Positions 2,981 to 7,764 of a stretch of DNA of 30,776 bases are shown piece after piece (within the stretch, counting starts at the first letter, position 1; every line of letters starts with the position of its first letter). The stretch comes from a virus. The translations under genes were made by a program, and so were the position numbers. Below the pieces are notes generated by a model, which saw nothing but the letters and a program-made list of their open reading frames with translations, did not search any database and was not told the origin of the DNA. Where the stretch lies: IMG/VR virus record IMGVR_UViG_3300047667_000187, positions 1-30,776 of that record; one strand, written 5' to 3'.

Positions 2981-3238
2981 TTACTTCAAACCCATCGCGA
3001 CAGCCTGTGTCTGAACTTCAGCTGAAGTCCGTGAATCGGCAATCACAGCCTGACGAAGTTCACCGATCTTGAAGTAATCACTGACGGTGCGTGACTTCGT
3101 TGGCATGTTGCAAGCGTCAGCGGTTGTTTTAAATGTCACTTCAGACAATCCGTCACGGTTTGCAACGATCACAGCTGCAGAAAGGATGACCGCGTGACGT
3201 TGCGCGCGGGGTAGTTTACTGGCGTTTTTCGTTTCCAT
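2981..3238 (-). CDS. Stand-alone TetR-like helix-turn-helix protein
   Basis: 85 residues. The segment RAQRHAVILSAAVIVANRDG followed by LSEVTFKTTADACNMP and then RTVSDYFKIGELRQAVIAD follows the pattern of a TetR N-terminal DNA-binding domain: first helix, HTH with T/A-rich turn, then YF and ELRxAVI in helix 4. It lacks the large ligand-binding and dimerisation domain of real TetR proteins, so it would act as a minimal DNA-binding protein. The ATG at 3238 overlaps the TAA of the 55-aa gene (TAATG). It is the only recognisable sequence-specific regulator candidate in the window and lies just downstream of one copy of the recurring direct-repeat element, so it may control the early promoters; that link is inference. 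Confidence 0.72.
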   Translation of the reverse strand: METKNASKLPRAQRHAVILSAAVIVANRDGLSEVTFKTTADACNMPTKSRTVSDYFKIGELRQAVIADSRTSAEVQTQAVAMGLK

Positions 3239-3449: not shown

Positions 3450-3816
3450 CGACAGTCATCAACCCCTTAATTATTTTTTCGAATTCGTCAGCTGAAGTGC
3501 AGAAAAAAGCAATGCCCCCGCGCAAATTTATATCGTTGATTGCGTTCGCCTGTGCGACCTCTCGTTCAGCCCCTTTCCACACCCAACCGGGTCTTTTCAT
3601 TTCGACCCACAGCGCGCGCCCGTTTGGTCCGATGCCGACAAGATCAGACGACTTCCAAACCTTATTGATTTTCGGGCTATCGTTCCCAAGACCAAACCGA
3701 ACGTGACGGTGTTCTTCACGCGACACGCCCGAATTGTTCCGGTAAAGTGCGAAACCCATTTCGAACGCTCTTAGGATCGTTTTGGCTTGTTCCGGGAATT
3801 CTGTTGTGCCTGTCAT
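3445..3816 (-). CDS. VRR-NUC domain nuclease
   Basis: 123 residues, the usual length of a minimal phage VRR-NUC protein. The PD-(D/E)xK-type active site is visible as SSDLVGIG (D58) followed by ALWVEMKRPG (E72, K74), then a helix with Q (AQANAINDINLRGG) and a terminal strand IAFFCTSADE, the family pattern. Such proteins cut structured or branched DNA and probably resolve replication or recombination intermediates before packaging. The ATG at 3816 overlaps the TAA of the helicase gene (TAATG), and pairing of VRR-NUC with an SF2 helicase is common in phages. Metal-dependent nuclease activity is inferred from the intact motif. Confidence 0.88.
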   Translation of the reverse strand: MTGTTEFPEQAKTILRAFEMGFALYRNNSGVSREEHRHVRFGLGNDSPKINKVWKSSDLVGIGPNGRALWVEMKRPGWVWKGAEREVAQANAINDINLRGGIAFFCTSADEFEKIIKGLMTVV

Positions 3817-5474
3817 TAGATAAATTCCTTGCGAATTTCTTCAGTCATTTTAACCATTTCAGGCATTTTCATGCTTTGCGCAGTCAGGACGTCACAGCCA
3901 AATTTGTGATAAAATATGCGATAAGCGTTTGATTCCGTTCGTCCGTGAACCTGTGTCTGAACCCCCGCCCATAGTTCAATGGCTTCACGAAGTTCAGCCT
4001 GTGACGTCTGACGGTTTCTGAAGTTTTTGTGAATTGCGCCAATCACCCTTGGATCAGTGATACTGTGTGGAACGACCGCTTCACCACCTGAAACCGCTAA
4101 GACCTGACCCCGCATCATTGCCAAAGTTTCAGCGTCAATTTCAGACAGATCACCGTCAACGAACTGTGGACCGTTACGCGCTGCAGGTTCTTCAACGTGC
4201 TGGCAATATGGGCAGGTGCTGGTGATCGCTTCATAGGCGCTGAAGCATTTAGTGCAGCGCGTCAGGGGCAGAACGTTGGGGTCAGGTAGACCACGCGGCG
4301 TCCCACGAAGATCAGCTTCAAGTGACCAACTTCTGTGTGCGTCTGGCAGTCCGTGTCGTTTATAGTTGCCAACGTGGTCAATGATCATCCCGTGAAGTTT
4401 ACCGTCAAACACACGAAGCGCGCGCCCAAATTGTTGAAGGTAAAGACCGAACGATTCCGTTGGTCGACCCATCATGACAACTTCCACAGCGGGAACGTCA
4501 AACCCTTCACCAAACAGGTCGACGTTCACAAGAACGGTCAGTTCACCTTTGCCAAAACGTCGAATCGCATCCTGTCGAATTCTGTCAGGCGTTTTCGATG
4601 ACACAGCCATAGCTTTCACACCGGCTTCGTTGAATTTGTTGGCAACATTAACAGCGGTTTCAATATCCACCACGAACGCAATCCCGCGTTTTCCCGGTGC
4701 GTAGATCGAATAGTTTTCAACCATGTCACCAACGATTGTCGACTTGTGCGAAGCTTCACGCGTTTTGTTTGGGTTCAGTTCGCCTGTCTTGTCTGAAACA
4801 GGAATTTGTGAACGATCAATCGAAAGGGTAGGGGCAACCAAACGGTAATCTGAAAGAAACCCCATGTCGATAAGTTCGCGCATGGATGGACCGTGAACCA
4901 TGTAGTCAAACATTCCACCATGAACCCGCCCTAACGGTTGACGGTCAGCGCGCAACGGTGACGCTGTGAACGCCACACCGAACGCATTAGGCATCAACAG
5001 CGAAGCTTGACCCCACTGGTTTTTCGGGGTCATGTGGTGACCTTCATCCGTGTTCCATGCGCGAACCGAATTCAGATATTGTGCGAGAGGTTCAGCGCGG
5101 TTCAACAACGTCTTCACGCCTGACACTGAATCAGGTGCTTTATCGTGATGGAAGTTCGCGCCAACTTCTTCAATGTGTCGTGTGATGCAAAATTTAATTA
5201 CAGCGTCAGACGCGTGAATTCGGTGGTAAATTTCGTTCTTGGCTAATGCTAGGCTGATCTGCGAAACAAGTTCCTGACGGTGTGCAATTGATACGGTTGG
5301 ACCGTCAACGCTTTTCACTGTGGCTGACATGATCATGGTTTTACCTGCACCGGTTGGCGCATAGGCTAAAACGTTGCACGGACCCTGTTGATTATCAACG
5401 CGCGGAAGTTGCCAGTTTTCGAAAATCCCGTTCAGGATTGGTTGTTGATATTCAGGGCGCAAAATTACTGGCAT
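3816..5474 (-). CDS. Superfamily II DEAD/DEAH-like DNA helicase with C-terminal zinc ribbon
   Basis: 552 residues. Helicase motifs in order: LRPEYQQP (Q-motif-like, residues 5-12), Walker A PTGAGKT (40-46), DEGH Walker B (143-146), motif III FTASPLRADR, motif IV-like GIAFVVDIETA, motif V VLVNVDLFGEGFDVP, and motif VI QFGRALR. A zinc ribbon follows with C407, C410, C421 and C424 (CTKC...CPYC). This is the restriction-type (ResIII-like) helicase common in phage replication blocks, likely unwinding the template or remodelling forks for the phage polymerases. It overlaps the upstream acidic-protein gene by 10 bases and the downstream nuclease start by one base. A transcription-coupled or RNA role is possible but less likely in this setting. 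Confidence 0.92.
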   Translation of the reverse strand: MPVILRPEYQQPILNGIFENWQLPRVDNQQGPCNVLAYAPTGAGKTMIMSATVKSVDGPTVSIAHRQELVSQISLALAKNEIYHRIHASDAVIKFCITRHIEEVGANFHHDKAPDSVSGVKTLLNRAEPLAQYLNSVRAWNTDEGHHMTPKNQWGQASLLMPNAFGVAFTASPLRADRQPLGRVHGGMFDYMVHGPSMRELIDMGFLSDYRLVAPTLSIDRSQIPVSDKTGELNPNKTREASHKSTIVGDMVENYSIYAPGKRGIAFVVDIETAVNVANKFNEAGVKAMAVSSKTPDRIRQDAIRRFGKGELTVLVNVDLFGEGFDVPAVEVVMMGRPTESFGLYLQQFGRALRVFDGKLHGMIIDHVGNYKRHGLPDAHRSWSLEADLRGTPRGLPDPNVLPLTRCTKCFSAYEAITSTCPYCQHVEEPAARNGPQFVDGDLSEIDAETLAMMRGQVLAVSGGEAVVPHSITDPRVIGAIHKNFRNRQTSQAELREAIELWAGVQTQVHGRTESNAYRIFYHKFGCDVLTAQSMKMPEMVKMTEEIRKEFI

Positions 5475-5776
5475 TTAAAAAACAACCTCATGAAATCAAG
5501 TTCAAACTTCATCGCGTTAAACTGTGCAACGAAGTCTTCAGCTTCAGTGAAGTTCTGAAGGTCCATGAAATCAGTGAAAACTTCGTGATCAGATAAAGCG
5601 TCTTCAAGTGTGTTCCACTTCGAATCGTCAATAAATGACTGAAACCCGTCAACAAGTGCTTCTAATTCATCAACTTCAGCGCTTGCTAGATCACACAGCG
5701 CGCGTTGTTCGGGGGTTCCGTCACTGCGAATTTCACGGGTGACGTCGTCCCAAGTTGTGTTCAATGTTATTTTCAT
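5465..5776 (-). CDS. Acidic 103-residue protein, first gene of the early minus operon
   Basis: Starts at an ATG at 5776 after CAGGGTTT. The product is strongly acidic, with runs such as SAEVDELEALVDGF and DALSDHEVFTDFMDL, and ends in a more hydrophobic FELDFMRLFFKCQ. It seems mostly helical with no cysteine cluster, membrane segment or recognisable catalytic motif. As the promoter-proximal gene of the operon, made first after infection, a host-takeover or DNA-mimic role is conceivable, but nothing in the sequence proves it. Its 3' end overlaps the helicase start by 10 bases. Confidence 0.7.
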   Translation of the reverse strand: MKITLNTTWDDVTREIRSDGTPEQRALCDLASAEVDELEALVDGFQSFIDDSKWNTLEDALSDHEVFTDFMDLQNFTEAEDFVAQFNAMKFELDFMRLFFKCQ

Positions 5777-5804
5777 AAACCCTGAATGCCTGACTTTTTT
5801 GTTG

Positions 5805-5845
5805 TTGACAAGTGTTGTCTAATGTTTATTAGTGTTTCTTGTCAA
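5805..5845. promoter_or_regulatory. Nested palindrome with overlapping divergent promoters
   Basis: TTGACAAG at 5805-5812 is the exact inverse of CTTGTCAA at 5838-5845, and inside it CTAAT (5819-5823) is the inverse of ATTAG (5828-5832). Both dyads share a centre near 5825. The outer arms each provide a consensus-like -35 box, TTGACA on the plus strand (5805-5810) and on the minus strand (5845-5840). On the plus strand a TATTAG (5827-5832) follows 16 bases later; the minus strand has only a weak ATTAGA-type match. This lies between the divergent genes starting at 5776 and 5888, so it probably drives both operons. The centre also holds TAATGT...TTAGTGT, related to the repeats at 3432 and 10941. 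Confidence 0.6.
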
Positions 5846-5887: not shown

Positions 5888-6592
5888 ATGCCACGTATTC
5901 TGACGATGACAATGGAAATTTCAGACAAAGAAGCTGAAAACTATCTTGAACGCTTATTCACACGAAGTGACGTTGAAATCACAGGTGACGGTGGTGGTCA
6001 AGTTGCTACAGCTATCGCTACACCATCCGCGCCTATGACACCTGCAGCGACCGGAACACTTGACAAAAATGGCGTTGAATGGAACGCAAGCTTTCACGCC
6101 ACAACCAAAACAATGAAGGCTGACGGAACTTGGAAAGCGGCGAAAGGCATGGACGCTGAAGTGAAAGCTGCAGCCGCTATCTATAACGCCACACCAGCTG
6201 CACCTGACGCACCTGCCGCTGTTTGCGAAGTGATGACACCAGCCGCACCCGTTGCGCCTGTCGCTGTTTGCGAAGTGATGACACCAGCCGCACCCGTTGC
6301 GCCTGTCGCACCGTCATCACCCGTTGCACCCACACCACCAGCCGCGCCTGTTGCCCCTGTCGCCGCGCCGGTTCTTCCTGTTGCACCTGTCGCCCCACCA
6401 GTTCCCGCGCCGGTCAGCTTTGAAGAACTGACAGCTGCGTTCGGTGTTGTCATCGCGCGCGTCGGTCAAGACGCGCTTATGGCTGTTCTTGGTCAAATTT
6501 ACACTGACGCAGGAACTGACGCAGCCGGTTCGACACTGCAGACCAACGAAACGCACCGTGCGTCTGTTTTCAACGCAATCAACGCGCTGTAA
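5888..6592 (+). CDS. Recombination-operon protein with Pro-Ala-Val linker
   Basis: I place the start at the ATG at 5888, which follows an AAGGA site, and not further upstream where the frame runs back into the promoter. The 234-residue product has a short N-terminal segment ([20 protein letters not shown]), then [20 protein letters not shown]...WKAAKGMD, a motif seen as NGxPWDxRIHxxTKxxxADGxWRxRRGVD in phage proteins next to RecB-like exonucleases and ssDNA-binding proteins. A long low-complexity PAAPVAPV linker (about residues 98-175) follows, including a perfect 15-residue tandem duplication containing a Cys, and then a compact helical C-terminal domain ([20 protein letters not shown]). First gene of the plus operon. 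A role as an accessory to exonuclease and SSB is inferred from context; the biochemical role is unknown. Confidence 0.8.
6218..6307 (+). repeat. Perfect 45-bp tandem duplication in the linker
   Basis: Two identical 45-base units, 6218-6262 and 6263-6307, encode [15 protein letters not shown] twice. The identity at DNA level, including third codon positions, points to a recent duplication or ongoing expansion and contraction. Confidence 0.9.
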
Positions 6593-6657: not shown

Positions 6658-7764
6658 ATGGTTAATTTTGCAGACAAACTGAAGAAAAAACGTTTCAGAC
6701 CATCACAGGCAAGCTATTGGTCGAAGTGTGCAGCGTTTCAACGTCTGACTTCGAACCTTCCTGAACAAGAATCAGGTGACGCAGCACGTGAAGGAACGTG
6801 TGCAGCTTGGGTCGCTGACGTTGTGTTGATGGATCACGACGGGATGACCTGCAGCGACCTGATAGGTGAAACCCATCCTAACGGGTGGTTAGTCACCACA
6901 GAAATGGCCGCTGACGTTCAGTTATATGTGAACCTCGTTCGATCCTATGGCGGTGAAGTTGTGGCTGAAGAATACGTCACGGCAAGCGAAAACCCGTTGA
7001 TCGCCGGTTCACTCGATTCTTCAATTGTGAACGTGACTGACGGGGTTCTTCGAATTATCGACTTGAAGTATGGTCGACGGATCGTTGAAACAACAGCCGC
7101 GCAGCTTATCCCCTACGCCTTTGGAAAGCTTTTGAAACTTCCTGCAGGTTCAGTGAACGAAGTTCATCTTTCGATCTATCAACCCCGCGCGTTCCACAAG
7201 GATGGAATTTATAGAACACGTGTGGTCACGGTTGAACAGTTGACAGCTGAATTCACTGAACTTTGGAACATGGCTGTTGAAGGTGAAAAACCTGACGCTG
7301 TTGCAACAGCCGGTTCACATTGTGCAGACTGTGAAGCTGCAGCCGGTTGTGTGACTTTGGCGCAAACAACTTACAACCTCGTTCACTTTGTGAATTCACG
7401 TGAACACAGGAACATGTCGCCGGTTGAACTTTCCCGTGAACTTGACATGATGGAAGAATGCGAAAAAACTATCATAGCACGGTTTAAGGCTGTAAGGTCT
7501 GAAGCTGAGGCACGGGCTAAACATGAATCAATTCCGGGGTGGGGGATATCCACAAAGAAAGGCAATTCTACGTTCACCGCTTCAGGCGTCACCATTAGTC
7601 TTTTGACCGGTGTGGACCCTTACGAAAAGAAGCTTTGCACACCTGCAGAACTTTTAAGACGTGGCGCGACTGAAGAACAGTTGAAGTCACTGACCACAAG
7701 ACCAGAAACCGGACATAAACTAGCGCGACTGTCAGAAAATGACATTGCGAAAATGTTCAGCTAA
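6658..7764 (+). CDS. DUF2800/RecB-like Fe-S exonuclease
   Basis: 368 residues with the PD-(D/E)xK nuclease signature of phage RecB/Cas4-like exonucleases: REG near residue 45, AGSLDSS (D120) and IIDLKYG (D135, K137), then a Q-containing helix (LSIYQPR). Four cysteines are placed as in iron-sulfur nucleases: C24 near the N-terminus and C222, C225 and C231 in HCADCEAAAGC. The C-terminal GVDPYEKKL...LLRRGATEEQLK...RPETG part is typical of DUF2800 proteins. It would resect dsDNA ends to feed the neighbouring ssDNA-binding/annealing protein in phage recombination. It starts after AGGGAAGGCTAAA. No motif residue appears to be lost. Confidence 0.9.
   Translation: MVNFADKLKKKRFRPSQASYWSKCAAFQRLTSNLPEQESGDAAREGTCAAWVADVVLMDHDGMTCSDLIGETHPNGWLVTTEMAADVQLYVNLVRSYGGEVVAEEYVTASENPLIAGSLDSSIVNVTDGVLRIIDLKYGRRIVETTAAQLIPYAFGKLLKLPAGSVNEVHLSIYQPRAFHKDGIYRTRVVTVEQLTAEFTELWNMAVEGEKPDAVATAGSHCADCEAAAGCVTLAQTTYNLVHFVNSREHRNMSPVELSRELDMMEECEKTIIARFKAVRSEAEARAKHESIPGWGISTKKGNSTFTASGVTISLLTGVDPYEKKLCTPAELLRRGATEEQLKSLTTRPETGHKLARLSENDIAKMFS

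Follow-up and report, generated by a model that had tools for sequence, protein, structure and literature searches.

What is the short stretch between two divergent gene sets in the viral record IMG/VR IMGVR_UViG_3300047667_000187: a start site for both sets, a switch between them, or a chance crowding of ordinary signals? We analysed the whole 30,776-base record (hereafter, the window), in which the element in question reads TTGACAAGTGTTGTCTAATGTTTATTAGTGTTTCTTGTCAA. As an earlier note on this DNA had claimed, two facing TTGACA boxes lie between divergent operons (Table 1). The leftward gene starts at 5776 and the rightward gene at 5888, which confirms the divergence and leaves a gap of 111 bp; the rightward start at 5888 is backed by homologues, and a mechanical ORF start at 5786 is not.

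Results

Sequence of the facing-box element

The outer dyad of the element has perfect 8-bp arms (TTGACAAG/CTTGTCAA). The exact TTGACA..TGTCAA pair (span 20-70) occurs a single time in the window, which is weak evidence because ~0.53 such pairs are expected by chance per shuffled whole window; a facing TTGACA pair fell inside the 111-bp intergenic gap in 46 of 20,000 dinucleotide shuffles. Two co-centred inverted repeats had been described here, and both dyads are indeed present, their centres (5825.0 and 5825.5) standing half a base apart rather than coinciding exactly. The inner palindrome, CTAATGTTTATTAG, has 5-bp arms that are equalled in 2.7% of shuffled 29-mers, and it is absent from all relatives compared (46 other junctions), a single one of which (L084) has a central palindrome, unrelated to that of the window. 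A description as direct repeats spaced by 10 bp (AGTGTT/AATGTT/AGTGTT; p ~0.001 at lag 10) suits the inner sequence better than one as a palindrome.

Table 1. Positions in the window of the predicted promoter parts, sequence motifs and neighbouring genes.
Feature	Positions	Strand	Basis or remark
Interlocked double promoter element, predicted	5805..5845	.	Outer span 41 nt; 40-44 nt layout conserved at the same junction
Rightward -35 box TTGACA	5805..5810	+	Sequence; left member of conserved facing pair
Leftward -35 box TTGACA (TGTCAA on +)	5840..5845	-	Sequence; right member of conserved facing pair
Rightward -10 candidate TATTAG, spacer 16	5827..5832	+	Best-scoring hexamer
Leftward -10 candidate TAGACA, spacer 18, weak	5816..5821	-	Best-scoring minus-strand hexamer
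Inner palindrome CTAATGTTTATTAG	5819..5832	.	Named in the earlier note; not conserved
Direct repeats AGTGTT/AATGTT/AGTGTT, 10-bp spacing	5803..5836	+	Possible regulator site, class I junctions
Palindrome GACAA-GTG-TTGTC over left box	5807..5819	.	Read directly from sequence
85-aa protein with TetR-type DNA-binding domain, candidate regulator	2981..3238	-	Profile, structure model, conserved position
SF2 helicase, leftward operon	3816..5474	-	PHROG 16, Pfam Helicase_C and ResIII; 42-54% identity to relatives
First leftward gene, 103 aa, no assigned function	5465..5776	-	ORF
First rightward gene, Pro/Ala-rich, no assigned function	5888..6592	+	Homologues in L002-L008
DUF2800-family exonuclease, rightward operon	6658..7764	+	Annotation and homology

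Conservation of the geometry across relatives

Relatives were gathered by exonuclease-anchored and helicase-anchored searches, which returned 54 and 80 viral loci, respectively (many contigs being common to both), and 1 bacterial contig; single-protein scans of viral contigs found almost nothing, and alignment queries were needed. By exonuclease, the nearest named relatives are Schmittlotzvirus 7-7-1, Milano, OLIVR4, Rhizobium RHph phages and Sinorhizobium HMSP1-Susan. We counted exact TTGAC..GTCAA pairs near the helicase/DUF2800-exonuclease junction and clustered the helicases at 70% identity. Facing boxes were visible already in the first relatives examined, and 40 of the 67 helicase clusters have a facing pair with a span of 40-44 nt. 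Where the earlier note had staked its reading on dyads conserved in relatives, the outer pair is conserved and the inner palindrome is not. Of the 97 facing pairs with spans of 20-69 near the junction, 69 fall within 40-44 (42 and 43 being commonest), vs. 5 pairs in the everted orientation, and neither everted nor tandem box pairs near the junction peak at 40-44. The carriers include Agrobacterium phages 7-7-1 and Milano and Rhizobium and Sinorhizobium phages and, among named phages from other hosts, Klebsiella SBP and MEW1, Vibrio VP16C and Pseudomonas MR14. The geometry is kept among phages whose exonucleases are only 27-30% identical. Near-exact versions stand at three further junctions (L022, L054 and L056), and among the matches listed by a collection-wide pattern scan, L184, L185 and L247 also belong to the group, each having these genes at its divergent junction. 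Among the 27 clusters without an exact pair, some are degenerate and in others the junction possibly lies off the contig; no 40-44 nt facing pair was found at the junctions of Edwardsiella MSW-3, Vibrio 1.195.O and Escherichia AVIO78A. In most rows of the comparison the pair lies tens of bases from the start codons on both sides, as do 60% of random positions. That a near-identical 40-44 base layout stands at this gene junction in dozens of phages, distantly related to one another, makes the element look like an old start site common to both halves of a replication gene set.

The closest competing reading is chance or mere compactness, two ordinary promoters being crowded into a short gap while their spacing is not under selection. 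Intergenic gaps here are short, and similar 42-43 nt pairs are also present at some divergent junctions of unrelated viruses; however, the spans peak sharply at 42-43 instead of spreading broadly, across loci with GC of 0.39-0.69, and other lengths are represented by about one facing pair each, which makes this reading improbable. Among the matches listed by the collection-wide scan, a divergent context was found for 21 of 127 with the 42-43 nt geometry vs. 17 of 130 with a 52-53 nt control, a mild difference, and a survey of one host genome gave no excess over the backward control.

At four unrelated viral divergent junctions (L172, L187, L268 and L272) we observed facing promoters, nearly symmetric and 42-43 nt in span, in which either strand has a good -10; the genes flanking these look-alikes bear no useful names. 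Separately, within a group of close relatives (L066, L067, L068, L069, L118 and L144), the inner TGACA...TGTCA is changed to TGTCA...TGACA in L068, with symmetry kept, and its symmetry is broken in L067 and L069.

Predicted promoter anatomy

For 45 non-redundant junctions we took the best hexamer 16-19 bp from each box and compared its score with 2000 shuffles. We found that -10 hexamers are enriched on both strands, with 0 of 2000 shuffles reaching the observed score for either one, and that 31 of the 45 junctions have a rightward spacer of 17 bp. This enrichment argues that each box has a -10 of its own, which would lie inside the spacer of the other promoter, each predicted start then falling at the edge of the other's -35; together with the conserved geometry, it supports the earlier suggestion that the divergent promoters overlap almost completely. 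Family-wide, -35 and -10 elements 16-19 bp apart are present on both strands, overlapping, between divergent genes, the window's own -10s being weak. The TATTAG of the window recurs at spacer 17 in L021, L045, L072 and L080, and a strict E. coli-type promoter scan scored no promoter at the window element because both of its -10s are poor. From the usual -10-to-start distance, starts are predicted near 5839 and 5809, ~30 bp apart, with leaders of ~49 nt (rightward) and ~33 nt (leftward). Judged from sequence, the element most likely consists of two interlocked sigma70 promoters, and we regard the pairing of promoters, taken by itself, as highly probable.

Candidate operator motifs and a candidate regulator

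Many junctions, here called class II, have a left box that forms part of a longer TGAC-N6-GTCA motif, the only arm spacing that is clearly enriched (17 copies in junctions), with GTCA exactly at position 12 in 14 of 45 junctions. This motif overlaps the left -35 and the leftward -10 at many junctions and is lacking in the window; where it covers the left box, it is likely an operator. Two copies stand in the gap of Klebsiella SBP, Klebsiella MEW1 and Edwardsiella MSW-3, and many copies outside the junction lie ~1.7-2.2 kb away, where they may reflect a conserved coding peptide. In MSW-3 (L145 2695-2810) two TGAC-N6-GTCA palindromes take the place of the 40-44 nt pair, and one of them could supply -35 boxes for both directions. 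In SBP (L146 about 2280-2435) the facing pair seems to have lost its rightward -10, and just downstream lies a second promoter (TTGACG...TATAGA), with its own TGAC-N6-GTCA copy, that seems to be a replacement.

Class I junctions (n=11), the window's kind, have 10-bp direct repeats in place of this motif, with a lag-10 identity of 0.489 vs. a largest shuffled value of 0.383, a signal that arises partly because the two -10s are themselves ~10 bp apart. We assigned the window to class I manually, on the ground that the class I insertion is present in its HTH protein; the automatic regulator classes had misfiled it, and probably also L006 and L034. Operator class and regulator class co-occur, an agreement that is not independent evidence because both follow phylogeny. 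More speculatively, the GACAA-GTG-TTGTC palindrome over the window's left box might be an analogue of the class II operator.

The small HTH gene is conserved with the junction, typically lying between the nuclease and primase genes, and the loci compared contain 98 reading frames for it, some of them the same contig twice. The window's copy, already singled out as an HTH protein, matches PDB TetR chains by profile (E 1.6e-13), and its AlphaFold2 model (85 aa, five helices, pLDDT 92.7) agrees with EilR-DNA (Z 9.8, rmsd 1.3 over 59 residues); Foldseek alone on the model gave no match under 0.001, and Pfam TetR_N is above its cut-off in L146, L113 and L080 and below it in the window protein. Profile and model together identify a TetR-type N-terminal DNA-binding domain, and the C-terminal ligand-binding/dimerisation domain of the TetR family is absent from the 85-aa protein. 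We consider this protein the best candidate ligand of the junction site; that such a regulator acts at the junction is a serious possibility, slightly less likely than not.

Flanking operons and proposed joint expression

Leftward from the junction run the 103-aa gene, helicase, nuclease, TetR-type HTH, a TAGT-type glycosyltransferase, ThyX and a primase-like protein, and rightward the Pro/Ala-rich protein, DUF2800 exonuclease, a Gp2.5-like annealing protein and DNA polymerase; in other phages, the first leftward gene is often the helicase itself or another small gene. In L002, a GIY-YIG-like homing endonuclease frame (1491-2126, by eye) is the first leftward gene adjoining the double promoter, and in Rhizobium phages a tRNA-Gln gene separates the exonuclease from the first rightward gene (L008 4384-4458, L009 3880-3954). 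Within the window's leftward operon, the ThyX-type thymidylate synthase is paired with the TET-associated glycosyltransferase (TAGT; 869-2761), which suggests hypermodified DNA bases, and the primase-like protein (3-872), cut off at the window's left edge, has an NrS-1 polymerase HBD domain.

We think it probable that the 41-bp element is a pair of host-type sigma70 promoters with joint expression of both half-operons. Host RNA polymerase would start both replication half-operons from one ~42-bp site, the promoters firing away from each other into their own genes and yet interlocking. By the geometry, polymerase would sit in one orientation at a time, so that one short site would feed both half-operons, and competition between polymerases is plausible here because both -35s are strong. 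Most likely, the small TetR-type protein from the leftward operon would bind within the site and later shut both directions (autoregulation). Promoter activity, exclusive occupancy and regulator binding are what we infer from these data.

The earlier note had instead proposed an on/off switch, in which a dimer on the dyad sets one operon on and the other off. Simultaneous occupancy would be forbidden by the geometry and an HTH protein is encoded nearby, as a switch would have it, but both operons hold replication genes (helicase, nuclease and primase-like protein on one side; exonuclease, annealing protein and DNA polymerase on the other), the inner dyad is not conserved and no two-state regulator pair lies beside the junction, all of which leaves alternation quite unlikely. 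Because replication genes stand on both sides, joint on/joint off control of the half-operons is more likely than an either/or switch. Least likely of all, and very improbable, is an operator without promoters, an origin-like element whose boxes would serve mainly as half-sites for a protein of regulation or replication, their TTGAC resembling a -35 only incidentally: the palindromic TGAC-N6-GTCA at many junctions and the replication genes on both flanks would suit it, but -10 hexamers are correctly spaced on both strands, a span varying over 40-44 is ill-suited to one rigid dimer on the outer arms, and there are no iterons except three short 10-bp repeats. A replication origin, which the earlier note also suggested, drew neither support nor contradiction from the analysis; no initiator is known for this phage group.

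Discussion

Lysis-lysogeny switches resemble the junction in having promoters that oppose each other across a short gap and an HTH regulator; unlike those switches, the junction is flanked by replication genes and genes without assigned function rather than by a repressor/antirepressor pair. The closest working analogue is Tn10 tetR/tetA, whose overlapping divergent promoters were reportedly described by Bertrand in 1983 and contain TetR operators through which one repressor controls both directions. The likeness lies in the overlapping divergent promoters, binding by a TetR-type protein being only proposed here; Tn10 has a full-length TetR with a ligand domain and serves resistance, whereas here a stand-alone HTH domain accompanies replication genes.

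Among phages, divergent sigma70-type promoters have been predicted at the helicase/exonuclease junction of Agrobacterium phage 7-7-1, from which two large transcription units leave, and the authors state that they found no evidence of how transcription is regulated in time (PMC3517404). That prediction, as far as the paper's main text goes, is like ours in junction, genes and sigma70 type; that text does not mention that the promoters overlap, that their span is fixed or that the arrangement is conserved (PMC3517404). In the literature searched we came upon no report of the fixed 40-44 bp layout or its spread. The bidirectional promoters of E. coli and Salmonella are likewise two opposite-strand sigma70 promoters that share a short stretch and make polymerase compete with itself (PMC12825309, PMC10268837); in E. 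coli this competition is slight at basal activity and strong once one side is improved (PMC12825309). They are defined by starts 7-25 bp apart (18 commonest) and overlapping -10 elements (PMC10268837). Here, in contrast, the -10s are predicted not to overlap, the starts to be ~30 bp apart and the -35s to be strong on both sides, so that, by its predicted geometry only, the element falls outside the published definition.

The double-promoter model is testable because some carrier phages have cultivated hosts. To our knowledge, non-coding phage regulatory sites are rarely recognisable once proteins have diverged to ~27-30% identity; elements of this type keep their geometry despite divergence to that level. 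A selected 42-43 bp span, ~30 bp between starts and a stand-alone TetR domain may together mark a distinct, ancient class of two-way promoter, retained at one replication-gene junction in phages of Alpha- and Gammaproteobacteria, a proposal that we advance tentatively. Such a conserved double promoter bears directly on that statement about temporal regulation in the 7-7-1 paper (PMC3517404). Its confirmation would broaden what counts as a two-way bacterial promoter, with a compact promoter and a minimal regulator paired in many phages.
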